Origin: Maribacter sp.
Lineage (GTDB): Bacteria; Bacteroidota; Bacteroidia; Flavobacteriales; Flavobacteriaceae
DNA length: 34,525 nucleotides
NCBI RefSeq assembly: GCF_016744255.1
Contig: NZ_JADGES010000030.1
Location: 1-34,525, forward strand
Direction of reading: 5' to 3'
Below, in pieces: positions 682-33,576 of the stretch. Position 1 is the stretch's first letter. Each line of letters starts with the position of its first letter. The notes beneath the pieces were generated by a model. The model was not told the DNA's origin. It did not search any database and saw only the letters and a list, made by a program, of their open reading frames with translations. The translations under genes and the position numbers were made by a program.

Positions 682-726
682 CTAAATTAATACAATAGAT
701 TAAATCTATTTGAAACTTATGTTACA
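682..726 (-). promoter_or_regulatory. Crp/Fnr-type operator and promoter of the peroxiredoxin gene
   Basis: The near-palindrome TGAAACTTATGTTACA lies at 711-726. A -7-like element TAATTTAG (minus strand, 689 to 682) differs from TAnnTTTG at one base. Centre-to-T spacing is 29.5 bp, the same as in four other promoters of this window. The predicted start of transcription is near 677, about 32 nt before the ATG at 645. Confidence 0.6.
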
Positions 727-823
727 TAAGCTAAAAATTTAAAAAAAAAGTGCTCTTAACGTTTATAGTATTCTATTACTTCTTGGCATAACTTTTCTTT
801 ATCAATCTAAAAAAACAAATAAA

Positions 824-832
824 TTATCCACA
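824..832 (+). other. Isolated DnaA-box-like nonamer in the 646-1011 gap
   Basis: TTATCCACA matches the DnaA box exactly, but it is alone. The remaining gap between the peroxiredoxin and the dihydrouridine synthase is AT-rich and holds only the two promoters listed separately. I see no further gene, repeat or hairpin in it. It is probably a chance match in AT-rich DNA rather than an origin. Confidence 0.15.
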
Positions 833-986
833 AAAAAACTCTGCACTAGACCGTATCCCATTTAAACAACGCAATTAGAGAAACTCTTACTATAAATATA
901 TTTTATACAAAAAATTACATTTTGCTATAATTTTGAATACAAAAACCATATCATAACCCTAAATCAAAACCATCAACCAATTATCC

Positions 987-994
987 TATATTTG
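987..994 (+). promoter_or_regulatory. -7 element of the dihydrouridine synthase gene
   Basis: TATATTTG matches the Bacteroidota -7 consensus TAnnTTTG and lies 17 bp before the ATG at 1012, so the leader would be only about 12 nt. No convincing -33 TTG is visible. A second possible TAnnTTTG lies further upstream near 930-937. Confidence 0.5.
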
Positions 995-1011
995 CCCGAC
1001 TAAACAACAAA

Positions 1012-1977
1012 ATGGCTTCTACTCTACTTTCATCACCTTTACAAGGCTTTACAGATTTCAGATTTCGTAACGCCTTCCATCATTACTTTGGAGGTATCGA
1101 TACATTCTATGCGCCATACATTAGGCTAAATGGAAAGCTAAAAATTAAGCAATCCTATCAAAACGATTTATTGCCAGAAAACAACACTACTTTAGAGGTG
1201 ATTCCGCAAGTAATCACTAACGATCCGGAAGAATTTATATATGTTGCTAAATACGTACAAAGTTTAGGCTATAAAGAATTAAATTGGAATTTAGGCTGCC
1301 CATATCCTATGGTTACTAAATCTGGAATGGGCTCTGGCTTAATTTGCAATCCCAAAAAAATTAATGAGGTCTTACACAAGGCACACAACGAAACAGATAT
1401 TTTGGTTTCTATGAAAATGAGAATGGGGTACGAAAATGCAGAAGAAATTCTAGATGCCTTTCCTATTTTAGATCAATACCCGCTTAAAAACATTGCTATT
1501 CATGCAAGAATAGGAAAGCAACTCTACAAAGGCCCCGTAAATTTAGATGCTTTTGAAAAATGCATTCGTAGCACCAAACACAAGTTGTACTATAACGGAG
1601 ATATTACTAGCGTTTCTGCTTTTAAAGCCATTGAAAAACGTTTTCCAAATATCGATCATTTTATGATTGGCCGTGGTTTAATTGCTGATCCTTTTTTACC
1701 AAGTATGATAAAAAATAACACTACGGAATATCCCAAAAACCGATGGTCTATTTTTTCTGAATTTCATGACACTATTTACCAACAATATGACGAGTACTTG
1801 TCCGGGCCAACACCTATAAAAATGAAAATGTTAGGTTTTTGGGAATTTTTTTCTCAATCTACATCAAACCCACAGAAAACATACAAAGCCATAAAAAAAG
1901 CTACAAATCCTATAAAATATAGACAAGCAGTTGATCATATTTTAAAAACAGAAATGAAAATTAAAAGCACTTTGTAA
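1012..1977 (+). CDS. tRNA-dihydrouridine synthase family protein
   Basis: This 321-residue protein is an FMN-dependent TIM-barrel enzyme of the Dus family, which reduces uridine in the tRNA D-loop with NADPH. It starts with the family's SPLQGFTD segment (residues 8-15). The catalytic cysteine is Cys96 in the motif NLGCPYP. FMN-contacting segments follow: KMRMGY around 134, IHAR around 162, NGDI near 194, and GRGLIADP for the phosphate. Length is normal. Which D-loop uridine it modifies cannot be read from sequence; the short form resembles DusC-like members. It is a single gene with a promoter directly upstream, transcribed away from the peroxiredoxin. The ATG at 1012 is the first in frame and follows the -7 element closely. 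Confidence 0.9.
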   Translation: MASTLLSSPLQGFTDFRFRNAFHHYFGGIDTFYAPYIRLNGKLKIKQSYQNDLLPENNTTLEVIPQVITNDPEEFIYVAKYVQSLGYKELNWNLGCPYPMVTKSGMGSGLICNPKKINEVLHKAHNETDILVSMKMRMGYENAEEILDAFPILDQYPLKNIAIHARIGKQLYKGPVNLDAFEKCIRSTKHKLYYNGDITSVSAFKAIEKRFPNIDHFMIGRGLIADPFLPSMIKNNTTEYPKNRWSIFSEFHDTIYQQYDEYLSGPTPIKMKMLGFWEFFSQSTSNPQKTYKAIKKATNPIKYRQAVDHILKTEMKIKSTL

Positions 1978-2163
1978 GTAGATCTATAATTCGCTTTGTC
2001 AATTCTAGGTGTTTTTTATTACTTCTCTTTATTCCGTTTAAAAGCAAAAGAGCTATACTTTCAACTAAAAAAGAGATGTACAAAGGCTTCTCTTGCTTAT
2101 TATAGAGCATAACATACACCAGCCAACATTAGCAATGTAAAAAACTACATACAATACCATTAT

Positions 2164-2600
2164 ACGTCTTAACCTTGGCCTCTCGACTTAATATGATTGA
2201 CAAAAATGTATTGCAAGGGTTGGGCTGAAAAATCCTCTATTTTCATGGCATACATCCTTTTTACCTTACCGTCTTTGGTTAGCTGAACCGCTGTTACCGC
2301 TTTCTTTTCTTGCCATGGTAACTTCTACACGTTTTACCTTCCTCCCTGCCGCCCAGCACAAACTCGCCGACATGAACATCTCCATCCATGGGATTGTTTT
2401 CACTAGAAGCCTACCTCTCTGACTTTTAATATAAAGAGTCATGCAGTCTTTTCTGTTACCCGATAGCGGATACCCATATAACTCACGGATAGGCTTTTAG
2501 TGAATGTGGCCATTTTAAAACAAATAAAAAATGTGTTGGTGGTAGCAGATTCAATATGTTCGCAGATATTAATAGCATAGCTAGCTCTAAAAAGAAGCTT
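2164..2600 (-). pseudogene. Decayed IS1595-like transposase
   Basis: Reading the minus strand in shifting frames recovers an ordered set of transposase fragments: SATTNTFF, FTKSLSVSYMG and RVTEKTA, then an in-frame TGA at 2439-2441, LFILKVREV, then after a shift near 2400 SSENNPMDGDVHVGEFVLGG, after a shift near 2305 KKAVTAVQLTKDGKVKRMYA, and after a shift near 2185 SREAKVKT. The order and wording match IS1595-family DDE transposases as I know them. The VHVxEF motif, which should carry the first catalytic Asp, has Gly here. At least one stop and three frameshifts make it dead. The C-terminal third is absent and I could not find terminal inverted repeats. The rest of the 1978-2829 gap shows only the terminator at 2786-2822. 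The 75-codon open frame at 2439-2666 is part of this wreck, not a separate gene. Confidence 0.65.
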
Positions 2601-2785
2601 AAAAAGTAGTTCTATACGCACAAAAAAGTAATTAAATAACCCTTGAGACACACAAATGAAAAACATACAAGACTTACTAAGTATAACTTTATTGTTAATA
2701 GCATTTAACCCGCTCTACGATGTTTGTTTTTACTGTGCAATGCCTACCTCTTATTTTTATAAATAATAGAACAACAAGAATAGAA

Positions 2786-2822
2786 ATTAAAAAGAGGAAA
2801 CAAAATGTTTCCTCTTTTTAAT
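2786..2822 (-). terminator. Rho-independent terminator after the sulfide:quinone oxidoreductase gene
   Basis: A perfect 16-bp inverted repeat (2786-2801 and 2807-2822) encloses a 5-nt loop. The stem carries GAGGAAAC/GTTTCCTC with A and T runs on either side, so it can stop transcription in both directions. It lies 8 nt past the stop codon of the minus-strand gene ending at 2830. Confidence 0.85.
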
Positions 2823-2829
2823 TCTAATT

Positions 2830-4140
2830 TTATACGTTTTTTCCTTTCATCATCTTATTCCAATATAGATAAGGAAGGCCATACTTTTTAAGCATCCATA
2901 ATCTCCAATGTTCTTTATTGCTATTAAAAACTAACATGCGTTTTAATTTAGGATCTGGGATAAAATTATTCTTATAATCGAACTCTGCGAGTACCATTTT
3001 ACCATAGTCCGTAACTAATGGACAAGAAGAATAACCATTATAAGATTTATTATTGGCTTCTTTATTATTTATAAGTTTAAACAAATTATCTACAACAATA
3101 GGCACTTGTTTACGTATTGCTGCTCCTGTTTTTGCCGTTGGTAAAGCTGCAACATCTCCTAAACCAAAAATATTCGGATATAAATTATGTTGCATGGTCT
3201 GATGATCAACATTTAACCAACCTGCATCATTTACTAAAGAAGATTCTCTAACAAACTTAGGAGCCACAGATGGGGGAGCTGTATGCAACATATCATAATG
3301 TATGCCGTAGCGATTGCCATCCCTTGTAATCTCTACATCTTTATAATTATATTGAAATGATTCATCTAGTTCTAGCTCGTCTGCTTGACCACTTGAAATG
3401 ACTACACAACCACCTGCAGTAATATCCTTACCCATTTCATACCAAGCAATTTGCTTTTCGGCATCTACAGCTACCAATTTATGATGAAATCTTAGATTAA
3501 TGTCTTTTCTATCTACTACCTCCATCAAGGTCTTAGCAATTTCCTTTACACCAAAAATAACGGTACCTCCAGTAGCAAAAATAATGTCAGTTTTTTTGTC
3601 CACCTCTGTTTTTCTGAAATGATTTTCCGCTAAGTACATAATTTTTTGTGGAGCGCCACCGCATTTAATAGGTGTTGTGGGTTGCGTAAAAAGAGCTGTT
3701 CCTCCTTTGAAGTTTTTAATAACATTCCAAGTATGTTTGGGATTTGTATAGTTACTACAAACTACACCTTTATCCATTGCCTCTCCCAAACCAGGAACCA
3801 AACTAAAATCATAAGCCAAGCCAGGAGCTACAACTAAATAATCATAAGCAATGTCTCCTTTTGTAGCCGTACTCACCTTATTATTTACCGTATCGAAACC
3901 AGTTGCTTTATCCTTTATCCAAGTGACTCCTTTTGGCATTATGTCGGCCATTGGCCTTGCCGTCTTTTCAAAGTCATACGCACCCGCACCAACAAGCGTC
4001 CAAGCAGGTTGGTAATAATGCGTATCACCAGGCTCTATAATACCAATATTTAATGTCCTATCTTTTTTTAATAATTGCCCTGCAGTCATTATTCCTGCAG
4101 TTCCTCCTCCTATAATAAGAACTTTATAATGTTTACCCAT
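2830..4140 (-). CDS. sqr: Sulfide:quinone oxidoreductase, type II (SQRDL-like)
   Basis: This 436-residue flavoprotein oxidises sulfide to a persulfide or sulfane sulfur and passes electrons to the membrane quinone pool. A Rossmann FAD-binding loop IGGGTAGI lies at residues 10-17 and a second FAD contact GLGD at 326-329. Two cysteines sit where the human SQRDL redox pair lies: Cys160 in PIKCGGAPQKIMYL and Cys373 in YSSCPLVTDY. A further Cys128 lies in VVCSNYT. Similarity to mitochondrial SQRDL runs to the C-terminus (LAEFDYK, PYLYWNKMM). No signal peptide is seen; the family is a monotopic membrane protein. Its own Crp/Fnr site (4194-4209) and promoter lie just upstream, a terminator follows, and it sits near a rhodanese, a natural acceptor for sulfane sulfur. 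Confidence 0.92.
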   Translation of the reverse strand: MGKHYKVLIIGGGTAGIMTAGQLLKKDRTLNIGIIEPGDTHYYQPAWTLVGAGAYDFEKTARPMADIMPKGVTWIKDKATGFDTVNNKVSTATKGDIAYDYLVVAPGLAYDFSLVPGLGEAMDKGVVCSNYTNPKHTWNVIKNFKGGTALFTQPTTPIKCGGAPQKIMYLAENHFRKTEVDKKTDIIFATGGTVIFGVKEIAKTLMEVVDRKDINLRFHHKLVAVDAEKQIAWYEMGKDITAGGCVVISSGQADELELDESFQYNYKDVEITRDGNRYGIHYDMLHTAPPSVAPKFVRESSLVNDAGWLNVDHQTMQHNLYPNIFGLGDVAALPTAKTGAAIRKQVPIVVDNLFKLINNKEANNKSYNGYSSCPLVTDYGKMVLAEFDYKNNFIPDPKLKRMLVFNSNKEHWRLWMLKKYGLPYLYWNKMMKGKNV

Positions 4141-4164
4141 ACCTTGTTTTTAAATGTAACCTGT

Positions 4165-4209
4165 TAAATATACACTAAGATATATTTTAACAATGTAACA
4201 ATTGTTACA
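4165..4209 (-). promoter_or_regulatory. Crp/Fnr-type operator and promoter of sqr
   Basis: TGTAACAATTGTTACA at 4194-4209 is a perfect 16-bp palindrome and the best operator of the set. TATATTTA (minus strand, 4172 to 4165) is one base from TAnnTTTG. Centre-to-T spacing is 29.5 bp. The predicted start near 4160 gives a leader of about 20 nt. Confidence 0.75.
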
Positions 4210-4290
4210 AAAGATATTCAAGGCACGAGATGTATTCAATATTCTAATTGGTTTTTAATGAATTTACTAAAAAATAACTGCAAATAATCA

Positions 4291-4503
4291 CTATTTATTA
4301 TCCTTTATTTTACAGCTGTTTATCCCGAACAAAGTGTATAATGGACAAAAACTAATAAAACTTGTAAAAACAAAAATTACTGCCAATCCTATAAGAACAT
4401 ATGCGAACATACCATGTAACACATTAGTTAAGTATAATGCTAAGACTATTCCTGCAATAATAAAACGAATTATACGATCTGCACCGCCCATATTTTTTGT
4501 CAT
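4291..4503 (-). CDS. DUF2892 small membrane protein
   Basis: This 70-residue protein opens with the family hallmark NMGGADRIIRF, followed by two hydrophobic helices (about 12-28 and 31-50). It ends in a short tail with two cysteines, Cys53 in SFCPLYTLFG and Cys64 in NSCK. DUF2892 matches the membrane part of E. coli YgaP, where the same domain is fused to a rhodanese. Here a separate single-domain rhodanese lies 1.4 kb away and shares the regulator site. A role in inner-membrane handling of sulfane sulfur is therefore plausible but is inference. The gene has its own Crp/Fnr promoter (4561-4605) and is followed after about 150 nt by sqr, which has a separate promoter. Confidence 0.85.
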   Translation of the reverse strand: MTKNMGGADRIIRFIIAGIVLALYLTNVLHGMFAYVLIGLAVIFVFTSFISFCPLYTLFGINSCKIKDNK

Positions 4504-4560
4504 ACCATAAAATTTTAAATTATTAACTTTTTGAAGGATTACTAATGCCTTTTGATACTA

Positions 4561-4605
4561 CAAAAGTAATTATCGTATTTTGCTAAAGCTGTGACATATG
4601 TTACA
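4561..4605 (-). promoter_or_regulatory. Crp/Fnr-type operator and promoter of the DUF2892 gene
   Basis: TGTGACATATGTTACA at 4590-4605 is a near-perfect palindrome. TACTTTTG (minus strand, 4568 to 4561) is a perfect TAnnTTTG. Spacing is 29.5 bp, so the site is centred near -41.5 from a start at about 4556. The plus-strand methyltransferase begins only 25 bp on the other side, with no -7 element at the matching distance, so the site probably serves the DUF2892 gene. Confidence 0.75.
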
Positions 4606-4629
4606 ACTCCGAATATTTAATCCTAAGTA

Positions 4630-5223
4630 ATGCAATTACAAAGAGTACTTGGTAAAATTGATATATATCTGTTAGACCAAATCTTAAAAAATAGATACCT
4701 TCTCTCCCAAAATATTTTAGATGCTGGTTGCGGTTCGGGGAGAAATTTACATTGGTTTATAGCCAATGGCTATGCCATTGAGGCAATAGACATAAATAAT
4801 TCCGAAATTGCCCTTTTAAAAGAGCTGTACCCTAGTTTAGAAAATAAATTTAATGTTGCAGAATTAGATAACTTACCTTTTACTAATACCTCTTTTGATC
4901 ATATTATTTGTAGTGCTGTATTACATTTTGCAAAAAATGAAACCCATTTTAAAAATATGCTTGGGGAGTTAGTGCGCGTTTTAAAAATAGGTGGCACCAT
5001 TTTTATAAGAATGGCCACAGATATTGGAGTAGAAAACAAAATTAAGCCTCTAGGGAAAGGGCTATTTTATTTACCCGATAATTCTGTTCGGTTCTTATTA
5101 ACCGTTCCATTGTTAGAAGAACTTATGCTAACACATAACCTTAGTTTCATAGACCCTTTTAAGAGTGTTTATGTGCATAACCAAAGAAGCATGTCTACTT
5201 TAATACTACGTAAAGAAGCTTAG
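4630..5223 (+). CDS. Class I SAM-dependent methyltransferase
   Basis: This 197-residue Rossmann methyltransferase has motif I LDAGCGSGRNL (about residues 31-41), an acidic residue after strand 2 in EAIDINN, the post-strand-4 stretch DHIICSAVLHF, and LKIGGTIFIRM as motif III. This is the Methyltransf_11/TehB-like type. The substrate is unknown; small thiol, chalcogen and lipid substrates are all possible, and its place among sulfide genes hints at a sulfur or selenium compound. It is divergent from the DUF2892 gene and shares a 126-bp upstream region containing the Crp/Fnr site at 4590-4605. It ends in a 4-bp convergent overlap with the first regulator gene. No strong promoter of its own is visible. 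Confidence 0.85.
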   Translation: MQLQRVLGKIDIYLLDQILKNRYLLSQNILDAGCGSGRNLHWFIANGYAIEAIDINNSEIALLKELYPSLENKFNVAELDNLPFTNTSFDHIICSAVLHFAKNETHFKNMLGELVRVLKIGGTIFIRMATDIGVENKIKPLGKGLFYLPDNSVRFLLTVPLLEELMLTHNLSFIDPFKSVYVHNQRSMSTLILRKEA

Positions 5224-5855
5224 TCTCTTAATTGAATTGTTCCATGCTTTAAAAACAAATGACCTTCTAGTTCTAATTTTTTTAATAATCTTGAAATTAC
5301 TTCGCGAGAAGAACCTAATTCTTTTGCTATTTGCTGATGGGTATTCTTTATTTCTTTGGAATTATGAAGAGAAGATTCTTTTTGTAAGTATTCTAGCAAA
5401 AGCCGGTCTTTATTAGAAAAAGTGAGTACCTCAACCATATGCAGTAACTCATCAAACTTTAGATTAAATAGATCATAAAAAAACTCGTTCCATTTGGGGT
5501 AATTCCGTGCAATATCAAGAGCTTTGCCAGCGGGTATTAATACCATTTCGGCATCTTTCTCTACAACCGCTTTTACTTTGCTAATTTCATCCTTTACCAA
5601 AGTTGTCATAGACATAACACAACTTTCTCCTGGTTCTATATAGTATAGAAGTACTTCTGCTCCGGTTTCATCTTCCTTAAAGACTTTTACTAAACCAGAA
5701 ACTAAAAAAGGAATTACCTTAATATACGTACCAGACTTAAGAATTACATTCCCTTTTTCTATTTGCACTAAGCTACTAACTTGTACTATTTCTTCTTTAA
5801 GCTCTATATTTTCTGCCAGATAAGGAAAATGCTGTTCTACTATAGTGTTAATCAC
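5220..5855 (-). CDS. Crp/Fnr family regulator (first of two)
   Basis: This 211-residue protein has an N-terminal cyclic-nucleotide-binding-like beta-barrel (about 20-120), a dimerisation helix (about 120-150) and a C-terminal winged helix with NTHQQIAKELGSSREVISRL. The recognition helix REVISRLLKKLE resembles that of the second regulator at 6453, so both may read similar DNA. There is no N-terminal cysteine cluster as in E. coli FNR, hence no iron-sulfur cluster of that type. The only cysteine is Cys79 in GESCVMSM. It lies 65 nt downstream of the rhodanese and has no recognisable operator of its own, so it is probably co-transcribed with it. A small TGATTT/AAATCA hairpin sits in the gap. The effector is unknown. 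Confidence 0.88.
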   Translation of the reverse strand: MINTIVEQHFPYLAENIELKEEIVQVSSLVQIEKGNVILKSGTYIKVIPFLVSGLVKVFKEDETGAEVLLYYIEPGESCVMSMTTLVKDEISKVKAVVEKDAEMVLIPAGKALDIARNYPKWNEFFYDLFNLKFDELLHMVEVLTFSNKDRLLLEYLQKESSLHNSKEIKNTHQQIAKELGSSREVISRLLKKLELEGHLFLKHGTIQLRD

Positions 5856-5920
5856 AAGTCTTTTTTTGTAAAAATAAAGAAATGATTTACAGAGAAATCA
5901 CTTTTAATCTAGGTTTTATG

Positions 5921-6262
5921 CTACCATCTGGAGTATCCTCCTTGTAAATCATAGATTTTTTCAAAACCCATATCTGCTAACTTATGTGCCGCTTTTTGAC
6001 TACGAGCACCAGAACGGCAATAAATATATAATGGTTTAGATTTGTCTAATTTTTCAAAATATGCTTTGAAATTACCTGGTCTAAAAAAATCTACATTTAC
6101 TGCTTTTTTTATATGACCGCCACCAAATTCATTTGGTGTACGCACATCTATTAACTGTACTTTTTTTCCAGAAATAGCAGATGAAAAAGAATTCTTATTT
6201 AAAACTTCAATAATCCCTGAGTAATCTTTCTTTGGCCCAAATAAGCTACTTAAAAATGACAT
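5921..6262 (-). CDS. Single-domain rhodanese sulfurtransferase
   Basis: This 113-residue rhodanese has the catalytic cysteine Cys82 in the six-residue loop CRSGAR, which carries the persulfide. The upstream CDC25-like DVRTPNEF (39-46) and the terminal GGYSRW complete the fold. A short hydrophobic N-terminus (MSFLSSLFG) is too short for a clear signal peptide. It probably moves sulfane sulfur, for example persulfide made by the nearby sulfide:quinone oxidoreductase, to a cytosolic acceptor. Upstream are the Crp/Fnr promoter at 6396-6440 and, between promoter and gene, a strong terminator hairpin (6305-6340). Expression may therefore need read-through. The first regulator follows after 65 nt. 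Confidence 0.92.
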   Translation of the reverse strand: MSFLSSLFGPKKDYSGIIEVLNKNSFSSAISGKKVQLIDVRTPNEFGGGHIKKAVNVDFFRPGNFKAYFEKLDKSKPLYIYCRSGARSQKAAHKLADMGFEKIYDLQGGYSRW

Positions 6263-6297
6263 ATTCTATATTTTTAGTGATGTAAAATAAAGGCAAG

Positions 6298-6391
6298 TAA
6301 AATAAAAGAAACGACCACAAGGTCTCATGATCGTTTCCTTAAATAACCAACCAATAAAAATTTGTATTCAAAAAATTCATAGTTTAAATAC
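6298..6391 (-). ncRNA. Candidate Crp/Fnr-activated small RNA or attenuated leader
   Basis: Transcription from the promoter at 6396-6440 should start near 6391 and meet a strong hairpin with a U-rich tail about 50 nt later. The product would be an RNA of roughly 90 nt with no sizeable reading frame. The rhodanese ATG lies a further 36 nt on. Two readings fit: a separate regulatory RNA, like FNR-activated FnrS of enterobacteria in logic only, or a leader whose terminator limits rhodanese expression. This is inference from promoter and terminator positions; ends are approximate. Confidence 0.35.
6305..6340 (-). terminator. Rho-independent terminator between the second regulator and the rhodanese
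   Basis: On the minus strand GAAACGATCAT pairs with GTGGTCGTTTC (11 pairs including two G-U), followed by TTTTATTTTA. It lies about 110 nt past the stop codon of the second Crp/Fnr gene and downstream of the promoter at 6396-6440, so it would stop transcripts from both. Confidence 0.75.
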
Positions 6392-6395
6392 AGGA

Positions 6396-6440
6396 TAAAA
6401 GTAGTCTAGGTAATTCTAAGAGACAGTAACTAATGTTACA
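6396..6440 (-). promoter_or_regulatory. Crp/Fnr-type operator and promoter upstream of the rhodanese
   Basis: The operator AGTAACTAATGTTACA lies at 6425-6440 and TACTTTTA (minus strand, 6403 to 6396) is one base from TAnnTTTG. Spacing is again 29.5 bp. The first element downstream is the hairpin at 6305-6340 and the first gene is the rhodanese at 6262. Confidence 0.7.
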
Positions 6441-6452
6441 TTTAAAAAATTA

Positions 6453-7085
6453 TTATAAATCTACTAAACGAATATGGTTTCTGTTTAGTTCTATTTTACC
6501 CATGTTTTCTAGCTTTTTAAGAAGTCTAGAAACTACTACTCTAGAAGTATGTAGTTCATGTGCTATTTCTTGATGGGTATTGTTAATCGTATTATTATGG
6601 GTTACTCTAGCTTTATCTTTAAGGTACTTAAGTAAACGTTCATCCATTTTAAGAAAAGCAATACTGTCTACTGTTTCCATAACCTCATTTAAACGATTAT
6701 GGTAACTATCCAAGACAAAACCTCGCCAACTTGCGTATTTAGACATCCATTCTTCCATTTTCTGAATAGGTATCATAATTAACTTGGCATTGGTTTCTGC
6801 GACTGCGCGTATTTCACTTTTAGATTGCCCTACGCAACAACTTAAGGTCATAGCGCAAGTATCTCCATTTTCTAAAAAATAGAGTAGTAACTCATCGCCA
6901 TCCTTATCTTCTCTTAATATTTTAATGGCTCCAGATATTAATAAGGGCATAGATTTAATATAATCCCCTATCTCCATTATTTTAAAACCTTCCGGAATTT
7001 CTTTAAAGGTAGCTACTTGATTTATTTCGTTGATTAAATCCTCTTCAAATATATGTCCGTAGTTATCCTTTAATTCTTGAATCAT
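6453..7085 (-). CDS. Crp/Fnr family regulator (second of two), cysteine-rich sensor loop
   Basis: This 210-residue protein has the same layout as the regulator at 5220: beta-barrel sensor domain, dimer helix, and winged helix with NTHQEIAHELHTSRVVVSRL. Its barrel carries three clustered cysteines, Cys77, Cys83 and Cys84 in GDTCAMTLSCCVG, where the first regulator has one. The N-terminal FNR cluster is absent. A cysteine switch that senses persulfide, oxidant or NO is possible but is inference. The ATG at 7085 directly abuts the stop of the DUF983 gene, so the two form an operon driven by the Crp/Fnr site at 7529-7544, which implies autoregulation or cross-regulation. The terminator at 6305-6340 closes the unit. 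Confidence 0.88.
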   Translation of the reverse strand: MIQELKDNYGHIFEEDLINEINQVATFKEIPEGFKIMEIGDYIKSMPLLISGAIKILREDKDGDELLLYFLENGDTCAMTLSCCVGQSKSEIRAVAETNAKLIMIPIQKMEEWMSKYASWRGFVLDSYHNRLNEVMETVDSIAFLKMDERLLKYLKDKARVTHNNTINNTHQEIAHELHTSRVVVSRLLKKLENMGKIELNRNHIRLVDL

Positions 7086-7484
7086 TTAGGGTTTTGTTTT
7101 TGCTTTAGCTGCAATACTCTTATCAAATTTAAAAAAAATATTGGCCCAAATAGATTTAGAAATAGCGCCAATATATGGCATGGTTAAAACCAGCCCAACA
7201 ATTATGCTAATAAAGGTATAAAAAAGACTAAAGTCTAGCCCTAAAATTTGAATTAAAACGTAAACAGCTACGGCTACTGCAATACCAACACCATAAGATA
7301 CATACATAGAACCGTAATAAAAACTAGGTTCTATACTATACTTTAAGTTACAACTGGGGCAATTCTTTTTTACTTTATTGAATTTACTAAGTTTATATGG
7401 GCTAGCTTCTAAAAAATTCCCTTCATGACACCTAGGGCATTTTAAAAATAAAATACTATATAGTTTTGATTCCTTAAAAGACAT
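7086..7484 (-). CDS. DUF983 membrane protein
   Basis: This protein has an N-terminal zinc-ribbon-like pair CPRCH and CPSC, then two hydrophobic helices (roughly the last 75 residues), as in DUF983. I place the start at the ATG at 7484 (132 aa). The longer frame from 7511 would begin upstream of the predicted transcription start near 7495, and its extra residues are not family-like. No enzymatic function is known for the family. It is the first gene of an operon with the second Crp/Fnr regulator, which abuts it with no spacer, and it belongs to the 29.5-bp promoter set. Membrane location and metal binding are predicted from the sequence only. Confidence 0.8.
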   Translation of the reverse strand: MSFKESKLYSILFLKCPRCHEGNFLEASPYKLSKFNKVKKNCPSCNLKYSIEPSFYYGSMYVSYGVGIAVAVAVYVLIQILGLDFSLFYTFISIIVGLVLTMPYIGAISKSIWANIFFKFDKSIAAKAKTKP

Positions 7485-7499
7485 ACTACTTTTTGCGTA

Positions 7500-7544
7500 T
7501 AAAAGTAGCACATTAGCAAAACTCTATAAGTAACAAAGGTTACA
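7500..7544 (-). promoter_or_regulatory. Crp/Fnr-type operator and promoter of the DUF983-regulator operon
   Basis: AGTAACAAAGGTTACA at 7529-7544 is the operator and TACTTTTA (minus strand, 7507 to 7500) the -7 element, 29.5 bp apart as in the other four. The operator's GGTTACA half is also part of the terminator stem at 7534-7571. The predicted start near 7495 leaves about 11 nt before the ATG at 7484. Confidence 0.7.
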
Positions 7545-11089: not shown

Positions 11090-11758
11090 CTATTTTCTTA
11101 TAGATTTAATTAAAGCTAATGTTGCTTTTACATCTTTCTCTAGCTTTGCATAATCTTTACTTGCAATAATTTCTTTACTAATAAGTTTAGATCCCATACC
11201 AACACAAGTAACACCTGCATTAAACCAACCTTTTAAGTTCGCTTCTTCTGTACTTACACCACCTGTTGGCATAACACTTGTCCAAGGTTGAGGACCTTTT
11301 ATTGCAGAAACAAATCCTGGCCCGTATGTTGATCCTGGGAATAATTTAATAATCTCGCAACCCAGCTCTTCTGCTCTATTGATTTCTGTTAATGAACCAC
11401 AACCAGGAGACCATAATACCTTTCTACGGTTACATGCAATAGCAATATCTTCTCTTAAAGATGGAGTTACAATAAAGTTCGCCCCCATTTGCATGAACAT
11501 TGAAGCTGCTCCTGCATCTGTAATAGAACCAACTCCCATTATCATTCCTGGAAGTTCTTTTATTGCATACTTATTAAGTTCCGAAAAAACTTCAAAAGCA
11601 AAATCACCGCGAGCGGTAAATTCCATTAAACGAGCACCTCCGTCATAACAAGCTTTTAATACTTTTTTTCCTAACTCTATATCTGGGTTGTAAAACAAAG
11701 GAACCATTCCGGTTTCTTTCATTACACTAGCTACTTCTATTCTTGAATATTGTGCCAT
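11090..11758 (-). CDS. kdgA: KDPG aldolase (2-dehydro-3-deoxyphosphogluconate aldolase)
   Basis: This 222-residue TIM-barrel aldolase cleaves 2-keto-3-deoxy-6-phosphogluconate into pyruvate and glyceraldehyde 3-phosphate. Family residues are present: Glu46 and Arg50 in MEFTARGDFAF and the Schiff-base Lys138 in IIKLFPGS. The C-terminal PTGGV phosphate loop follows. It is second in a two-gene operon behind the KDG kinase (62-nt gap). Together they finish any route that ends in KDG, such as alginate, pectin, glucuronate or mannonate; the mannonate dehydratase 1.3 kb away on the same strand supplies one. The enzyme may also act on 4-hydroxy-2-oxoglutarate, as many members do. Confidence 0.93.
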   Translation of the reverse strand: MAQYSRIEVASVMKETGMVPLFYNPDIELGKKVLKACYDGGARLMEFTARGDFAFEVFSELNKYAIKELPGMIMGVGSITDAGAASMFMQMGANFIVTPSLREDIAIACNRRKVLWSPGCGSLTEINRAEELGCEIIKLFPGSTYGPGFVSAIKGPQPWTSVMPTGGVSTEEANLKGWFNAGVTCVGMGSKLISKEIIASKDYAKLEKDVKATLALIKSIRK

Positions 11759-11820
11759 AATTTTACAGGTAAGTCCTTCCCTTATAAAAGAGAAGAATTG
11801 TTATTTAAATGAATATTAAT

Positions 11821-12861
11821 TTATCTTGCTACACGTCCAGATGCGTCTCCTCCCATGAGTTTTTCAACTTCTGAAATAGTTACCAAGTTTGCATCCCCTT
11901 TAATGGTATGCTTTAAACAGGATGCTGCAACTGCAAAATCAAGCGCATTTTGGTCCTCTCCTGGGTACTTTAATAATCCGTAGATTAATCCTCCCATGAA
12001 AGAGTCTCCTCCACCAACTCTATCTACGATATCTGTAATTTGATATTGACGTGTTTCGTACATTCTCTCCCCATCATATAAAACCCCTGCCCATGTATTA
12101 TGAGAAGCTGAAATAGAACCACGTAAAGTTGTAATTACTTTTTTAGCTTTTGGGAATCGTTTCATCATTTGTTTACATACAGATAAAAAAGCTTCTGCCT
12201 TAACATCATGACCATGTTTATGTACGTCTAATCCTTCTGGGTGTATTCCAAAGTGCTTTTCTGCATCTTCTTCATTTCCTAAGATAACATCGCAATACGA
12301 GGTAAGTTCTGTCATAATAGCCTCTCTATCTCCTCCGTAATTCCAAAGCTTAGCTCTATAATTTAAATCGGTAGAAATGGTAATTCCTTTTTCGCTAGCA
12401 ACCTTAACCGCTTCTAAACACACATCTGCTGCTCCTTGAGAAATAGCAGGAGTAATACCTGTCCAATGGAACCATTCTACATCTTTAAAAACAGTATCCC
12501 AATCGATCATTCCTGATTTAATCTCCGCAATAGCAGAATGTGCTCTATCATAAACCACTTTACTACCTCTACTTACTGCTCCAGTTTCTAAAAAATATAT
12601 TCCTAAGCGATCTCCACCGTAAACAATTTTATCTACACCAACACCACGCTTGCGCATTTCCATCAAAGCACATTCTCCAATGTCATTTTTTGGTAAACGT
12701 GTTACAAAATCAACAGGCACACCATAATTAGCAAGGGATACCGCTACATTAGATTCTCCTCCTCCATAAACAACATCGAAGTTATTCGCCTGTGAAAATC
12801 TTAAAAATCCTTGAGGTGCTAAACGAAGCATTATCTCTCCAAACGTTACTACTTTTTTCAT
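11821..12861 (-). CDS. kdgK: 2-Keto-3-deoxygluconate (KDG) kinase, PfkB family
   Basis: This 346-residue ribokinase-fold sugar kinase phosphorylates KDG at O6 with ATP. It opens with the PfkB first signature region VVYGGGESNVAVSLANYG (30-47) and has the second signature DRVGGGDSFMGG with the catalytic base Asp286. Length and paired aldolase support KDG kinase over fructokinase or ribokinase. The promoter TAACTTTG at 13055-13048 implies a 5' leader of roughly 180 nt, long for this genome; I see no known riboswitch fold in it. The operon is kdgK-kdgA. Why it stands outside the 14112-23400 operon is unclear, but it may also serve other KDG-producing pathways. Confidence 0.9.
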   Translation of the reverse strand: MKKVVTFGEIMLRLAPQGFLRFSQANNFDVVYGGGESNVAVSLANYGVPVDFVTRLPKNDIGECALMEMRKRGVGVDKIVYGGDRLGIYFLETGAVSRGSKVVYDRAHSAIAEIKSGMIDWDTVFKDVEWFHWTGITPAISQGAADVCLEAVKVASEKGITISTDLNYRAKLWNYGGDREAIMTELTSYCDVILGNEEDAEKHFGIHPEGLDVHKHGHDVKAEAFLSVCKQMMKRFPKAKKVITTLRGSISASHNTWAGVLYDGERMYETRQYQITDIVDRVGGGDSFMGGLIYGLLKYPGEDQNALDFAVAASCLKHTIKGDANLVTISEVEKLMGGDASGRVAR

Positions 12862-13047
12862 TTGATTTATATTGATTATAAGTTTTAAAGTCGATTTACA
12901 TATTTACCATTCTGTAAAGACCGTATTTTTCTACTACCCTATATGGCAATTTCTTTAATACACTATCGCGGAATAACAGTACGCTAATAATAAAACTATT
13001 TATTTCGCATTTATAGAATACTTTTTGTTCCCATTTAATACTAATCA

Positions 13048-13055
13048 CAAAGTTA
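13048..13055 (-). promoter_or_regulatory. -7 element of the kdgK-kdgA operon
   Basis: TAACTTTG on the minus strand matches TAnnTTTG. A TTG lies about 17 bp upstream in TTATTGG and could be the -33 element. The start codon is about 185 bp further on, so the transcript would have a long leader. Confidence 0.5.
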
Positions 13056-13103
13056 TATTGTCAAAAAACCAATAACTACTACAAATACGACCCATACCAA
13101 TAC

Positions 13104-13111
13104 TATTTTTG
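13104..13111 (+). promoter_or_regulatory. -7 element of the AraC-type regulator gene
   Basis: TATTTTTG matches TAnnTTTG and lies about 75 bp before the ATG at 13186. It is divergent from the kdgK promoter, with 48 bp between the two elements, so a regulator bound here could affect both. Confidence 0.45.
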
Positions 13112-13185
13112 CCTTAACTAAGTTTTAAAATTTAAATTTGTTTTATATTGTTAAGCATTACGCAACTCTCTATAGTAAAAAAGAA

Positions 13186-14055
13186 ATGAAACCACACCTA
13201 ATTAGCAGAGACAATCTAAAGAACAACTCTTTTATGATTACCAAACATTCTGACCCTTCTTTTCCTAAGGTTTGGCATTATCATCCAGAATTAGAATTGG
13301 TTTTAACTTTAAAAAGTACCGGAACAAGATTTGTTGGTGATAGTATTAAAAAATTTAATGAAAGTGATTTGGTTTTAATCGGGGAGAATGTACCACATAT
13401 GTGGATTAATGACGATTGCTACTTTGAACCAAACTCAGACTTAATTGCAGAGGATATAGTTATACATTTTAGAGAGGAATTTTTAGGGAAAGATTTTTTT
13501 AAAACCAAAGAAATGAAACCTATCTCTTTACTATTAACAAAGTCTAAGTATGGGATAAAATTCAATAATACACCCGTAAAAGTTTTAAAAAAAATAGAAG
13601 GTATTTCTGCTCTGAATGGATTTAAGAGAACCATTGAACTTCTAACAATCCTTAATATTCTTGCAAAACACAAGAATTACGAAATACTATCTAGCCAAGG
13701 CTATATTAAAACGTTTAATAAAACCAAAAATATTACCTTAGATAATACTTATGAATACATATTTGAAAACTTTAACAAACATATTTCTTTGACAGACGTA
13801 GCCAACGTTGCTAATATGAACCCCTCTGCTTTTAGCAGGTACTTTAAGCGGGTAAATAGAAAACCTTTCTCTAGGTATTTAAACGAAGTCCGTATTGGTT
13901 ATGCCTGTAATCAATTAATTGAACAAAAGGGAAATATAACAAGTATTTGTTACGATTCTGGATTTAATAATATCTCTAATTTTAATCGGCAATTTAAAAA
14001 TATTACTCAAAAATCTCCTTCAGAATATCTACGTGAGTATATACAAGTAAATTAA
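13186..14055 (+). CDS. AraC family transcriptional regulator
   Basis: I use the ATG at 13186 (289 aa); the frame runs 48 bp further to a TTG at 13138 but those residues are not family-like. The N-terminal half is a cupin sugar-sensing domain (VWHYHPELELVLTLKSTGTR near 30-50 of this start, GENVPHMW near 70). The C-terminal 100 residues hold the two helix-turn-helix motifs, the second with the AraC signature IGYACNQLIEQ and ICYDSGFNNISNFNRQFK. It sits between the kdgK operon, from which it diverges, and the convergent end of the mannoside operon. It probably controls kdgK-kdgA or the sugar locus; the inducer is unknown. Confidence 0.9.
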   Translation: MKPHLISRDNLKNNSFMITKHSDPSFPKVWHYHPELELVLTLKSTGTRFVGDSIKKFNESDLVLIGENVPHMWINDDCYFEPNSDLIAEDIVIHFREEFLGKDFFKTKEMKPISLLLTKSKYGIKFNNTPVKVLKKIEGISALNGFKRTIELLTILNILAKHKNYEILSSQGYIKTFNKTKNITLDNTYEYIFENFNKHISLTDVANVANMNPSAFSRYFKRVNRKPFSRYLNEVRIGYACNQLIEQKGNITSICYDSGFNNISNFNRQFKNITQKSPSEYLREYIQVN

Positions 14056-14111
14056 TTTTTCTTTCTGTTTATAAGGCTAATGAATTGATTCCCTAATTAT
14101 TGTTAGAACGT

Positions 14112-15182
14112 TTATGGTTCTAAAAGCGACATAGCAGCTTTCATATAACCCATAACATAGGCCATACCAGCGTACCAAGGAGCATCGCATGTCATTTGTG
14201 GTGTATGATCAGGAATTAAAACCCCTTCAAAATTGTTCTTCTTTAAAATTTTCAAAACCTTGAACATATCTATATCGCCTTCATCAACAAAAACCTCTTG
14301 ATATTGAGGCACTTTACCTACGATATTTCTAAAATGGATATACCCTATTCTACCCTGCTTACTATAACTATCCGTGGCATCATACACATTGCCTTCCGTC
14401 ATTTCAGCTATGGAACCCAAACAAAATTCGAGGTTATTGGCGGGGCTTGAATTCATATCAATTAATTTCTGATACAAATTAGGCTGATATACTAATCTAG
14501 GTGTATTCCTAACATAGGGCATTGGAGGATCATCTGGATGAGCTGCCATTTTAACTCCTGCCTCTTCTGCAATGGGTAAAATCTCATCTAGAAAATATTG
14601 TAAACGATTCCATAATGTTTCATGATCTATTTTTAACATTGTTCCCTGAGGAGCGTTTTCATCATAGACCATATTCCAAACCATTCCGTTCGGGATAGGC
14701 GTATCATCACCCCCATCCATTCCTACGGAAACAGCGGCTCCTCTTGCATATTCACCCTGTGTTCGGGCAGCCACGCCTGCCAAGGAAAAATTATAACCAA
14801 AAATGGGTATTCCAGCGGCACCTACGTTTTGAATCAACTGTTTTAAGTTGCTCATTTGTTCCTCTTTCTTTGGTCCATCCAATAAAATATCATGCCAATG
14901 TGCGGGGTCAAAATTCTCTATCGCCTCCCATTCTAGTCCGTGCGAATTAATCTCTTTTTTTATGGTCAATAATTCCTCTAAACTCCATAATTTATTGGGG
15001 TCTCCAGCCTTACCCCAGCCTTCCTCCTCGCCTATAGGTTGATTGGCATTACTCTTGTCATTTTTTTCATGTCCAAAATAATCGACCATATGTACCACCA
15101 AATGAGTAGCCCCACATTGTTTGGCGAATTTATAATGGTCATCATTCAACATATGTTTATATAGTCCAAATCCTAGTTTCAT
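14112..15182 (-). CDS. uxuA: Mannonate dehydratase
   Basis: This 356-residue xylose-isomerase-like TIM-barrel enzyme dehydrates D-mannonate to KDG with a divalent metal. Typical stretches are AIENFDPAHWHDILLDGPKK, GYNFSLAGV, PIPNGMVWNMVYD, AAHPDDPPMP and YIHFRN, which carry the metal ligands. It is the last gene of the minus-strand operon, 25 nt after the lactonase. No uronate isomerase (uxaC) or fructuronate reductase (uxuB) accompanies it, unlike hexuronate operons. Mannonate is therefore more likely supplied by the upstream dehydrogenase and lactonase, which is inference. Its product feeds kdgK-kdgA. Confidence 0.93.
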   Translation of the reverse strand: MKLGFGLYKHMLNDDHYKFAKQCGATHLVVHMVDYFGHEKNDKSNANQPIGEEEGWGKAGDPNKLWSLEELLTIKKEINSHGLEWEAIENFDPAHWHDILLDGPKKEEQMSNLKQLIQNVGAAGIPIFGYNFSLAGVAARTQGEYARGAAVSVGMDGGDDTPIPNGMVWNMVYDENAPQGTMLKIDHETLWNRLQYFLDEILPIAEEAGVKMAAHPDDPPMPYVRNTPRLVYQPNLYQKLIDMNSSPANNLEFCLGSIAEMTEGNVYDATDSYSKQGRIGYIHFRNIVGKVPQYQEVFVDEGDIDMFKVLKILKKNNFEGVLIPDHTPQMTCDAPWYAGMAYVMGYMKAAMSLLEP

Positions 15183-15207
15183 TTCAATACTTTTTTTACT
15201 TTACAAT

Positions 15208-16260
15208 TCACTTTAAAAACGCCACACAGACAGGTGTTTTTATCTCTTTTGTGCGATATACTTCTATTAATTTTCCGTTTCCTCTAATCCTATATACAAT
15301 GGTGTCATTTGAATTTTGATGACAAGCAATAAGCCACTTACCACTTGGAGAAATATTAAACTCTCTAAGCTCATTTGCGTTCGTATGTTTGTAGCCGACC
15401 AAATTCAATACATCTTCTTCCATTTTAAAAATGGTGATGGCATCAAGTTTTCTATTACCTACATACAAAAATTTACCGTTAGGATGAATTCTTATAGCTG
15501 AAGCACTTGGAGCACCTTGATAAAAATCTGGTAATGAATTATAAGAACCTATTTGGTTGAATTTATTCCCTTTGTTTTTTAATACAGAAACCGCACTGGT
15601 CAATTCATTGATTACATAACCCAGGCTCCCATCTTTATTGAATACCAAATGCCTAGGACCTCCTCCTTTACGTATACTGATATCCTTTTGAGGATTGGGA
15701 GTCAATTTATTTTCTTGAACTTCATAGGCCTTCACTGTATCTATTCCTAGATCACAGACATAAACATCTTTTTTATTCGGGTGCGCCACCACTTGATGTG
15801 CATGGGCAGCTTCTTGCCGTTCCAAATTTACACTTGACCCAGAATGCTGATGATTTTTAGCGCACATCAATAATCTACCTGATTCGTCAATAGGATATTC
15901 GAGCATATTTCCTGAAATATAACAGGCTATTAAAATTCTATCGTTTAGTGCTTCTATATGGCATGGACACCCTCCCAAAATCGGTTGCTCATTCAACAAT
16001 CCCAAAGAAGAATCATCTTTGATTTCATAAGCCTGAACTACTGGGCTATCCTCTTCAATTACCTCTGTATTACTATACAAGTATTTATTATCTGTACTTA
16101 AAGTAAGGTAACTCGGGCTAACTGTTTTTTTAGTATGCAAGACAGAAATTTCACCAGTCTCCTCGTTCAATTGAACTGTAGAAATTCCATCACCAGAACC
16201 GAAAATTTCGGGAGTCAGTTTTTGTGTGTAACTGCCAATAAAAAAAGTAGAAAATAGCAT
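15208..16260 (-). CDS. Beta-propeller lactonase (6-phosphogluconolactonase-like)
   Basis: This 350-residue protein is of the seven-bladed lactonase family (YbhE/Pgl type). The family begins with a strand like FFIGSYTQ (6-13). Characteristic pieces are HAHQVVAHPN (about 154-163), GGGPRHLVFNKDGSLGYVINE (about 200-220, the core of one blade) and IRIHPNGKFLYVGNR. There is no signal peptide, so it acts in the cytosol. The family hydrolyses sugar lactones; with an SDR dehydrogenase upstream and mannonate dehydratase downstream, an aldonolactone such as mannono-1,4- or 1,5-lactone is the likely substrate. It lies 34 nt after the SDR gene. Confidence 0.87.
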   Translation of the reverse strand: MLFSTFFIGSYTQKLTPEIFGSGDGISTVQLNEETGEISVLHTKKTVSPSYLTLSTDNKYLYSNTEVIEEDSPVVQAYEIKDDSSLGLLNEQPILGGCPCHIEALNDRILIACYISGNMLEYPIDESGRLLMCAKNHQHSGSSVNLERQEAAHAHQVVAHPNKKDVYVCDLGIDTVKAYEVQENKLTPNPQKDISIRKGGGPRHLVFNKDGSLGYVINELTSAVSVLKNKGNKFNQIGSYNSLPDFYQGAPSASAIRIHPNGKFLYVGNRKLDAITIFKMEEDVLNLVGYKHTNANELREFNISPSGKWLIACHQNSNDTIVYRIRGNGKLIEVYRTKEIKTPVCVAFLK

Positions 16261-16294
16261 TGTGTATATTAATTATATTCTCAATTTATTAGGT

Positions 16295-17089
16295 TTATTT
16301 TCTCGGCAGGCGAGGATCGTATTGTATGGTACTGTTCATATACGCCCCGTCAATATAGATATCCGAACCATTGATGTAATCGCCCAATTCACTTGCCATA
16401 AAAGCCACTGTATGGGCAACATCACCGACATTACCTACTCTCCCCTGAGGAATCCAATTTTCAAATTTCTCTATACCAAATTTTGTAATTTCCTCTTTGT
16501 TCATTTCTGTTGTAATGGCTCCAGGAGCAATAGAAACTACCCTTATATTATTTTCAGCCAATTCTAGCGATAAGCATTTAGAAAGCATTTTTAATCCTGC
16601 TTTTGCCGAACAATAATGTGTTAACCCCTTTCTTGGTACCACATCATGAATGGACGAAATGTTTATAATAACCCCTTCTCCAATGTCGGCCATTCTTTTA
16701 CCAGCCTCTTGTGAACATAGAAACGGCCCTTTCAAATTCACATTCATTACACGATCCCATTCACTTTCATCCATATCCAAAATATGATGGATAGATTCGG
16801 TACCAGCGTTGTTTACCAAAATATCAATCCCGCCTATTTCCTCATCCATTTTCAAGAACATCTTCTTGACCTGTACTGCGTTTGATACATCTGCACCTAC
16901 AATCCCCGTTTTCACCTCAAAAGAAGTACTTATCTCTTTTGCTAAATCTTCGGCACTTTGTTTATTGCTATTATAATTGATAAAAACATCAGCGCCGCAA
17001 GCTGCCATTTTTCTACAAATTTCAGCACCAATTCCTTTACTACCTCCAGTGACCAAAACCCTTTTACCTGTTAAATCTATCTTTATCAT
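16295..17089 (-). CDS. SDR dehydrogenase, probably aldose 1-dehydrogenase
   Basis: This 264-residue classical short-chain dehydrogenase has the NAD(P) loop TGGSKGIG (14-21), the structural NNAG (93-96) and the catalytic Ser145/Ser146, Tyr159 and Lys163 in SSIHDV and YCSAK. It resembles glucose 1-dehydrogenase and gluconate 5-dehydrogenase-type enzymes; SDR substrate calls by sequence are weak. The next two genes downstream are a lactonase and mannonate dehydratase, so the simplest role is oxidation of D-mannose to mannonolactone. The cofactor is not settled: an asparagine (NYN, 38-40) rather than an acidic residue ends strand 2, which permits NADP. It lies 41 nt after the cupin gene. Confidence 0.85.
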   Translation of the reverse strand: MIKIDLTGKRVLVTGGSKGIGAEICRKMAACGADVFINYNSNKQSAEDLAKEISTSFEVKTGIVGADVSNAVQVKKMFLKMDEEIGGIDILVNNAGTESIHHILDMDESEWDRVMNVNLKGPFLCSQEAGKRMADIGEGVIINISSIHDVVPRKGLTHYCSAKAGLKMLSKCLSLELAENNIRVVSIAPGAITTEMNKEEITKFGIEKFENWIPQGRVGNVGDVAHTVAFMASELGDYINGSDIYIDGAYMNSTIQYDPRLPRK

Positions 17090-17130
17090 AACCTTGGTTC
17101 TTTCATTTTTTTAATTACCGAATACTTGCT

Positions 17131-17550
17131 TTAGTGTTGCTCAAAAGCGTTCCTAACCAAGGCTTCCATTTCCCTCTTTTTTTCTTCATTTAGCGGGAAA
17201 AATTCAAAATCTCCCTCGTGAGTATATGACTTTTCGATTATAATAATCTCGCAATCCTCGCTCATTGCAATATTATGCCAAGTATCTATAGGAATGTTAT
17301 AGGTAATATTAGGTTTCAATAATTCTACCTCAAAAGCAACATTATTCTCCTTTATTTCGGCTCCAATCAATACGGCTTTTCCTTTCAACAGTATAAAAAC
17401 CTCATCGGTTAAATGATGGATATCTAGCTTATCTATATTGCCTATTTGCTGTTCTGGCATATAATTCAATTGTGCAACTTGCCATCCATCCCTGATTAAG
17501 AATGGATGATATCCATTACCACTAATCTGGTATTGTTCTATTAGTTTCAT
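17131..17550 (-). CDS. Small cupin protein
   Basis: This protein of about 139 residues is one double-stranded beta-helix domain. The metal-motif-like pieces are HHLTDEVFILLKGKAVL and, later, PIDTWHNIAM with a histidine; an EKSYTHEGDF tail follows. I prefer the ATG at 17550, one base after the stop codon of the transporter gene and preceded by AAGG at a suitable distance. An upstream ATG at 17577 would give 148 aa and a 26-bp overlap. Cupins in sugar operons can be isomerases, epimerases or lyases; a mutarotase-like or lactone-handling role is possible but is inference. Confidence 0.8.
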   Translation of the reverse strand: MKLIEQYQISGNGYHPFLIRDGWQVAQLNYMPEQQIGNIDKLDIHHLTDEVFILLKGKAVLIGAEIKENNVAFEVELLKPNITYNIPIDTWHNIAMSEDCEIIIIEKSYTHEGDFEFFPLNEEKKREMEALVRNAFEQH

Positions 17551-17551
17551 T

Positions 17552-27065: not shown

Positions 27066-27085
27066 CTTAAATCGTATATTTTCAT

Positions 27086-27114: not shown

Positions 27115-27132
27115 TTGTAAAAAAATGAACAA

Positions 27133-28695: not shown

Positions 28696-28697
28696 AA

Positions 28698-29060: not shown

Positions 29061-29067
29061 CTCTCAG

Positions 29068-33575: not shown

Positions 33576-33576
33576 A

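Follow-up and report, generated by a model that had tools for sequence, protein, structure and literature searches.

Five promoters in a 34,525-nucleotide stretch of DNA from Maribacter sp. (the window, which is the entire contig C9 of a 3.59 Mb draft genome) share one palindromic operator at one fixed distance from the -7 box. Together with at least four promoters elsewhere in the genome, they appear to constitute a single sulfide/persulfide regulon, activated by one of two Crp/Fnr proteins encoded in the window (regulator 2), likely through sulfane sulfur. We put the probability of this account at roughly 0.7. It is the best explanation of what was computed, namely the element, its spacing and conservation, the gene content, co-occurrence, and the conservation of cysteines; from these we infer activation, binding by regulator 2, the enzymatic steps (from family membership), and the signal and its chemistry. 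A preliminary description, made from the letters of the window, had already read the five sites as a Crp/Fnr regulon of sulfide and redox genes, and that reading is now strongly supported by recurrence across the genome, retention in relatives, and fixed spacing.

The five sites, all on the minus strand, lie where the preliminary description placed them (Table 1), with operators differing from TGTAACN4GTTACA at no more than one position. In 5/5 cases a box resembling TAnnTTTG (zero or one mismatch) follows after exactly 21 nucleotides (N21), putting its T 29.5 bp from the operator centre, again as described; the next-best operators within the window have three mismatches. The composite element searched for was TGTAACN4GTTACA-N21-TAnnTTTG, with a cut-off of two mismatches that was picked once the sites were already known. 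Allowing three gives about as many matches in the genome as does the reversed control (13 vs 11), and therefore two is the usable cut-off; allowing none gives no match in the genome. At the usable cut-off, the window holds five composites vs 0.03 per shuffled window, none of 100 shuffles reaching five, and the five-site element is confirmed. The scan of the whole genome that the preliminary description had proposed turned up nine composites, vs none for the reversed control. The four beyond the window lie upstream of genes for two MBL-rhodanese proteins of persulfide-dioxygenase type, for subunit I of cytochrome bd, and for an outer-membrane protein of the TolC type. Eight of the nine stand before genes concerned with sulfur, thiols, respiration or export; the remaining one stands before the genes for DUF983 and regulator 2. 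A tenth candidate, below the usable cut-off with three mismatches, precedes a fatty-acid hydroxylase gene (L038), and relatives have a site at such a gene.

The spacing proved equally constant in 80 named loci surrounding orthologues of regulator 2 (1.38 Mb in total). These contain 217 operators with at most one mismatch, vs 2-7 for each of six control palindromes, and 191 of the 217 have a -7 box (at most one mismatch) at exactly N21, amounting to 194 strand-hits since three operators are boxed on both sides. Across the other spacings between 0 and 100, the mean is 5.5 strand-hits and the maximum 15. A logo of 230 distinct sites, in which the columns used for selection are inflated and those of spacer and flank are not, reads GTAAC-N4-GTTAC. 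Immediately 3' of the operator it shows a weak preference for T (63%) and G (57%), and elsewhere the spacer carries no more than 0.22 bits. The preliminary description had put the operator near -41.5, the class II position. The single peak at N21, the recurrence through the genome, and the conservation in relatives bear out that geometry, the -41.5 itself being read from the -7 box. The arrangement matches that predicted for a class II Crp/Fnr-dependent promoter, whose operator sits at a constant position and overlaps the upstream promoter element. Repression from variable operator positions was rejected on account of the single spacing peak. At one locus (L266:2299-3925), a single operator serves two divergent N21 promoters, facing a YgaP-like gene and a sulfite-dehydrogenase-like gene.

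What the sites precede was surveyed in 84 sources (the window, three other stretches of the same genome, and the 80 loci), allowing up to two mismatches in the operator, one in the box, and three in total. Of 239 composites, five lack a downstream open reading frame (ORF), six precede singletons, and 222 precede 13 recurrent families: MBL-rhodanese/rhodanese (91), TauE (44), YeeE (21), regulator 2 itself (16), DUF983 (13), sulfide:quinone oxidoreductase (SQR; 9), peroxiredoxin (6), SulP (6), cytochrome bd (4), HMA (4, a label assigned by eye), YgaP-like (3), fatty-acid hydroxylase (3), and TolC (2). Since the loci were selected around regulator 2, its neighbours are over-represented in these counts. 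Pfam confirmed TauE, Sulf_transp (YeeE type), SulP, fatty-acid hydroxylase, OEP/TolC and cytochrome bd on single examples and 1-Cys peroxiredoxin on two; for a DUF983-labelled protein from one relative (L140), Pfam returned nothing at 1e-4. In the window, the annotations offered by the preliminary description hold for the AhpC/1-Cys peroxiredoxin, SQR, YgaP-like transmembrane protein (old DUF2892), rhodanese, DUF983 and the two Crp/Fnr proteins, and the best PDB matches of the SQR are mitochondrial SQOR entries. An MBL-rhodanese protein from elsewhere in the genome (397 residues given) matches the structures 3tp9, 3r2u, BpPRF and ETHE1, and its Pfam architecture is MBL plus two rhodanese stretches, as in CstB.

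A less biased check considered all sites in five relatives (G002, G086, G101, G105, G107), picked among genomes with at least five sites. Of their 33 genome-wide sites, 23 precede the same 13 families. Of the remaining ten, two lie before genes for thioredoxin-fold proteins, and one before that for a molybdopterin oxidoreductase closest to the SorA/SorT/SoxC sulfite dehydrogenases, though it scores under their cut-offs. L-glutamate gamma-semialdehyde dehydrogenase accounts for another two, and a lipoprotein-like protein that matches RskA_C for one; the last four are followed by no gene or by no more than a 54-residue ORF. The two dehydrogenase genes belong to two genera (L265:1022-2647, identified by HMM, and L257:936-2573, by eye) and have an unexplained link to sulfide; putA is listed among genes changed by sulfide in the portion consulted of one study (PMC5480029).

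The sites might have been lost in relatives that keep the genes, an outcome the preliminary description named as telling against it, and this was checked for SQR. Among 21 relatives with a readable promoter (the partial SQR of G030 being excluded), 18 keep an N21 site with at most three mismatches and 15 with at most two, the box ending 21-40 bases 5' of the start; G108, G118 and G111 have no site. Of 746 background windows from these loci, with real sites among them, 32 reach the same standard. The gene set has the appearance of a sulfide/persulfide-detoxification regulon that is conserved and has the geometry of class II activation.

The identity of the binding protein is suggested by the company the sites keep. 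Both regulators score above the cut-offs of PF00027 and PF13545, and a fold search with regulator 2 gave CRP-type proteins as its best matches. Its nearest named orthologue, from an uncultured Maribacter, is 91% identical, and only two proteins of the genome match it at E 0.001 or below, itself and regulator 1 (38% identity). In a family sample of 120 genomes, one per genus and including the present one (row G000), 95 have a strong match to regulator 2 (best E 5e-60 or better). These 95 genomes contain 504 sites vs 47 for the control, and the other 25 contain 17 vs 10, divided between eight genomes with distant matches only (8 vs 8) and 17 without a match at 1e-25 (9 vs 2). Likewise in a phylum sample of 198 genomes, four of them shared with the family sample, 143 sites occur in the 63 genomes with a match at 1e-40 and 22 in the 135 without. 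Since the sites co-occur with regulator 2 over genomes, the regulon is assigned to regulator 2, whose helix RVVVSR aligns with RVTVTR of NtcA (alignment with 2xgx).

Turning to the signal, the preliminary description had named sulfide/persulfide, low oxygen or oxidant; gene content favours the first of these and makes low oxygen and peroxide less favoured. The protein itself offers a candidate sensor. Among 172 collected regulator ORFs, 153 carry Val or Thr at position 183 (V/T-type) and 19 carry Glu. Cys77 is present in all 172 and therefore in 153/153 of the V/T-type, where Cys83 is present in 139/153 and Cys84 in 143/153; one of the six search peptides used to find the 80 loci contains Cys77, which biases that column and leaves those of Cys83 and Cys84 unaffected. 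Among 79 proteins of the C-C-C/V type with at least 3 kb on each side, 73 lie within 4 kb of a composite, and 69 have a gene for SQR, MBL-rhodanese or TauE in the neighbourhood. Labels of 'PDO' and SQR beside C-N-C-type paralogues reflect only 25-32% identity and were not counted as orthologues. Reactive sulfane sulfur (persulfide) is the likeliest candidate for the signal of regulator 2, favoured because known persulfide sensors use cysteine pairs or triples, according to the sections consulted of PMC9774590, and because a Crp-like protein of Acinetobacter baumannii is persulfidated.

Several observations weigh against the account given so far. The weak T and G at the 3' edge of the operator are where the TTG edge of a -33 element could lie, so a partial -33 element is possible. 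The difference in site counts over the 120 genomes (Mann-Whitney p 7e-13) carries no correction for kinship or genome size; all the genomes are related and those lacking regulator 2 are often small, so the co-occurrence is not independent. Seven of the 95 genomes with regulator 2 hold no site or one. An orthologue at L178 has Glu183 while the operator is unchanged, which contradicts Val183 as sole determinant of specificity. The 11 V/T-type proteins lacking Cys83 have no composite within 4 kb. Four genomes (G003, G016, G116, G119) whose sole regulator-2-type match at 1e-25 lacks both Cys83 and Cys84 nonetheless have 16 sites, contradicting the notion that these two residues are required for the regulon: two precede MBL-rhodanese, two TolC, one a rhodanese-like gene (BLAST label), three more thioredoxin-like genes (by eye), and the other eight are unlabelled or geneless. 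Around the cysteines the AlphaFold model has low confidence (pLDDT 58-62), too low for the distances between them to be judged. Finally, peroxiredoxin and bd oxidase would fit an oxidant or low-oxygen response as well. Two side observations concern such variants. In L303 and L310, from two genera with a regulator devoid of Cys83 and Cys84, a site is followed by thioredoxin genes that look alike (by eye). Relatives of regulator 2 with C-S-G in place of C-C-C (L228, L229, L232) adjoin YeeE-type genes and genes resembling moaA/moeA (by eye), with no composite in the stretch viewed; two of these genomes have sites elsewhere, before MBL-rhodanese or TolC.

Perhaps, then, regulator 2 binds the operators but responds to something other than sulfane sulfur, as a heme or general redox sensor (of oxidant, redox state or a gas) resembling PgRsp of Porphyromonas gingivalis. 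PgRsp binds heme, its Cys76, Met78 and His85 have been tested, and it was modelled on 3DV8, all according to the sections consulted of PMC6955866; regulator 2 has Cys77-x-Met79 (Met in 140/153), and its best PDB match by sequence is that same 3DV8. The peroxiredoxin and bd oxidase targets point in the same direction, as do the orthologues that lack Cys83 and Cys84 and retain sites before some of the same genes. However, enzymes of sulfide and persulfide and sulfur carriers dominate the gene content, no His is conserved at positions 84-88 (His87 in 21/153), and the point mutants of PgRsp still bound heme, so the motif is no proven heme site (PMC6955866, same sections). We regard such a signal, the chief rival to sulfane sulfur, as unlikely, though deserving of serious consideration.

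It is rather improbable that regulator 1 binds the five operators, alone or jointly with regulator 2. The idea has some appeal, since regulator 1 is a related Crp/Fnr protein lying inside the regulon, and the orthologues of at least 60% identity that were collected lie within a few kb of regulator 2 (L148, L163, L177, L187, L203), though all these loci were retrieved via regulator 2. Matches to it of at least 45%, however, are found in only two of the 120 genomes (the present one and G057), yet 94 of the 95 genomes with regulator 2 have at least one site; regulator 1 is too rare to be the sole binder. The eight genomes with distant Crp/Fnr matches only, moreover, have no more sites than the control. 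In its recognition helix, regulator 1 carries Glu in place of the Val of regulator 2, but L178 shows that the residue is not decisive by itself. Regulator 1 is more likely a target than a binder and behaves as a regulon member. In the four loci viewed, its orthologues follow a rhodanese gene, directly or past a methyltransferase, and from order and spacing regulator 1 and rhodanese probably form one operon. A SAM-dependent methyltransferase gene in the window (4630-5223) is divergent from operator 3; methyltransferases also lie 5' of regulator 1 in L203 and L163 (by eye), and the gene in the window may join the sulfur response.

A low-oxygen regulon of the FNR kind is very improbable. Cytochrome bd as a target and membership in the Crp/Fnr family would suit it, and two of the 16 sites in the genomes lacking Cys83 and Cys84 precede cytochrome-oxidase-related genes (L299, L304; by eye). 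But nitrate, fumarate and hcp genes are absent from the recurrent targets, and both regulators lack the FNR-type cysteine cluster, as the preliminary description held: regulator 2 has only Cys77, Cys83 and Cys84, regulator 1 only the equivalent of Cys77. FNR-type sensing is rejected on the same ground, the pattern C-x2,3-C-x5,9-C occurring in 0/172 proteins. As for chance or the composition of AT-rich intergenic DNA, the region is indeed AT-rich, the boxes short, and the signal near that of the control at three mismatches, but the shuffles and reversed pattern at two mismatches, the control palindromes, and the one spacing peak rule it out for practical purposes.

According to the model of a sulfane-sulfur response governed by regulator 2, SQR would convert sulfide to persulfide and the MBL-rhodanese dioxygenases persulfide to sulfite, while carriers of the TauE, YeeE and SulP types (in relatives) would transport sulfur species, and rhodaneses and YgaP-like proteins would handle sulfane sulfur. 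Cytochrome bd would maintain respiration in the presence of sulfide, to which bd oxidase is resistant and under which it sustains respiration (PMC4815019, sections consulted). A dimer of regulator 2 would bind GTAAC-N4-GTTAC through its NtcA-like helix, centred near -41.5, and recruit RNA polymerase, by class II activation, at promoters whose -33 element is partial at best, thereby controlling its own operon and regulator 1. Reactive sulfane sulfur would act on the invariant Cys77, in most orthologues together with Cys83 and Cys84, a region that presumably corresponds to the ligand pocket of CRP. It may be, and we suggest this tentatively from sequence, that regulator 2 founds a subfamily of Crp/Fnr proteins, occurring in the majority of the Flavobacteriaceae genera sampled, in which the cyclic-nucleotide pocket has been turned into a persulfide switch centred on Cys77, usually with Cys83-Cys84. 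If so, then sulfane sulfur would directly switch on a class II activator, which, working at ordinary promoters of the -7-box type, would be to activation what CstR and SqrR are to repression.

Table 1. Elements of the proposed regulon and associated genes in the window
Feature	Position	Strand	Basis
Operator 1, TGTAACATAAGTTTCA	711..726	-	motif scan + shuffles
-7 box TAATTTAG, N21 from operator 1	682..689	-	motif scan
Operator 2, TGTAACAATTGTTACA, perfect palindrome	4194..4209	-	motif scan + shuffles
-7 box TATATTTA of operator 2	4165..4172	-	motif scan
Operator 3, TGTAACATATGTCACA	4590..4605	-	motif scan + shuffles
-7 box TACTTTTG of operator 3	4561..4568	-	motif scan
Operator 4, TGTAACATTAGTTACT	6425..6440	-	motif scan + shuffles
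-7 box TACTTTTA of operator 4	6396..6403	-	motif scan
Operator 5, TGTAACCTTTGTTACT	7529..7544	-	motif scan + shuffles
-7 box TACTTTTA of operator 5	7500..7507	-	motif scan
1-Cys peroxiredoxin (AhpC/TSA), runs past contig start	1..645	-	Pfam PF00578/PF10417
Sulfide:quinone oxidoreductase (SQR)	2830..4140	-	PDB 6mp5, E 3.5e-100
YgaP-like transmembrane protein (formerly DUF2892)	4291..4503	-	Pfam PF11127
Regulator 1 (Crp/Fnr, helix REVISR, single Cys)	5220..5855	-	Pfam, sequence comparison
Rhodanese	5921..6262	-	Pfam PF00581
Regulator 2 (Crp/Fnr, helix RVVVSR, Cys77/83/84), proposed activator	6453..7085	-	Pfam, profiling, alignment
DUF983 membrane protein	7086..7484	-	Pfam PF06170; similar genes after sites in relatives

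The start of the DUF983 gene is best taken as the ATG at 7484, 3' of the -7 box, in preference to the upstream GTG of the ORF list. Judged by eye, the rest of the window includes a sugar-acid catabolism cluster (11090-19015: KdgK/KdgA-like, dehydrogenase, MFS transporter) and, at 24801-34525, a tyrosine integrase gene with helicase and DNA methylase genes after it, an arrangement resembling an integrated restriction-modification island.

The regulon appears real and conserved, and as far as searched it is unreported. Among the matches listed from the open-licence PMC literature (subscription papers and preprints lying outside the scope), there was no Crp/Fnr protein controlling the genes for SQR or persulfide dioxygenase in Bacteroidetes and no regulator of sulfide oxidation in Flavobacteriaceae. 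Papers on RedB, Crp/Fnr evolution, P. gingivalis Crp, and an anammox Crp/Fnr meta-regulon cover no such regulon in the sections consulted. With regulator 2 strongly matched in 95 of 120 sampled genera, the regulon can be read from sequence, and it supplies candidates for the regulator and for its sensing residues, along with an operator and a promoter geometry. DUF983, YgaP-like, fatty-acid-hydroxylase and YeeE genes gain a context of sulfur stress, and a sulfur sensor is predicted in a family whose members are known mainly as sensors of cAMP and oxygen.

Within that family, regulator 2 scores well below the equivalog cut-offs of CRP (NF008732: 61, and 41 for regulator 1, vs 266), NtcA (TIGR03697: 46 vs 245) and FNR (NF008365: 19-21 vs 228). 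The Glu of the cAMP pocket is presumably replaced by Met79. With cyanobacterial NtcA, regulator 2 shares the helix R-V-x-V-x-R and an operator of the form GTAN8TAC, that of the NtcA site, but NtcA responds to nitrogen/2-oxoglutarate and has no cysteines at the aligned positions. PgRsp, as presented in the sections consulted of PMC6955866, is likewise a Crp/Fnr redox regulator from Bacteroidetes, with Cys76 and Met78 and a model based on 3DV8, but it binds heme and has oxidative-stress targets; the comparison is by description, not sequence. The Crp-like regulator of A. baumannii was found heavily persulfidated in cells exposed to sulfide and was suggested to be regulated thereby, but the persulfide sensors of that organism are FisR and BigR, and the sections consulted describe no sulfide regulon under Crp (PMC7315123). 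SqrR/BigR (ArsR family) and FisR respond to sulfide or reactive sulfur species, as regulator 2 may, and like it have conserved cysteines, and FisR is an activator (PMC9774590, sections consulted), but their folds are unrelated to Crp/Fnr, and FisR is sigma-54 dependent (from a title in the reference list of PMC9774590), in contrast to the Bacteroidetes -7 box found here. The gene content overlaps with that of the CstR regulon of Staphylococcus aureus (tauE, cstA, cstB, sqr), with which SQR, the MBL-rhodanese persulfide dioxygenase and TauE are held in common (PMC5480029, sections consulted). CstR is a cysteine-based regulator (PMC9774590, sections consulted), as regulator 2 may be. There, however, the regulator is a repressor of the CsoR family, and here it would be a Crp/Fnr protein in activator geometry, with genes for bd oxidase, YgaP-like proteins, DUF983 and SulP added: a persulfide response of known type, placed under a different regulator family and a different mode of control.

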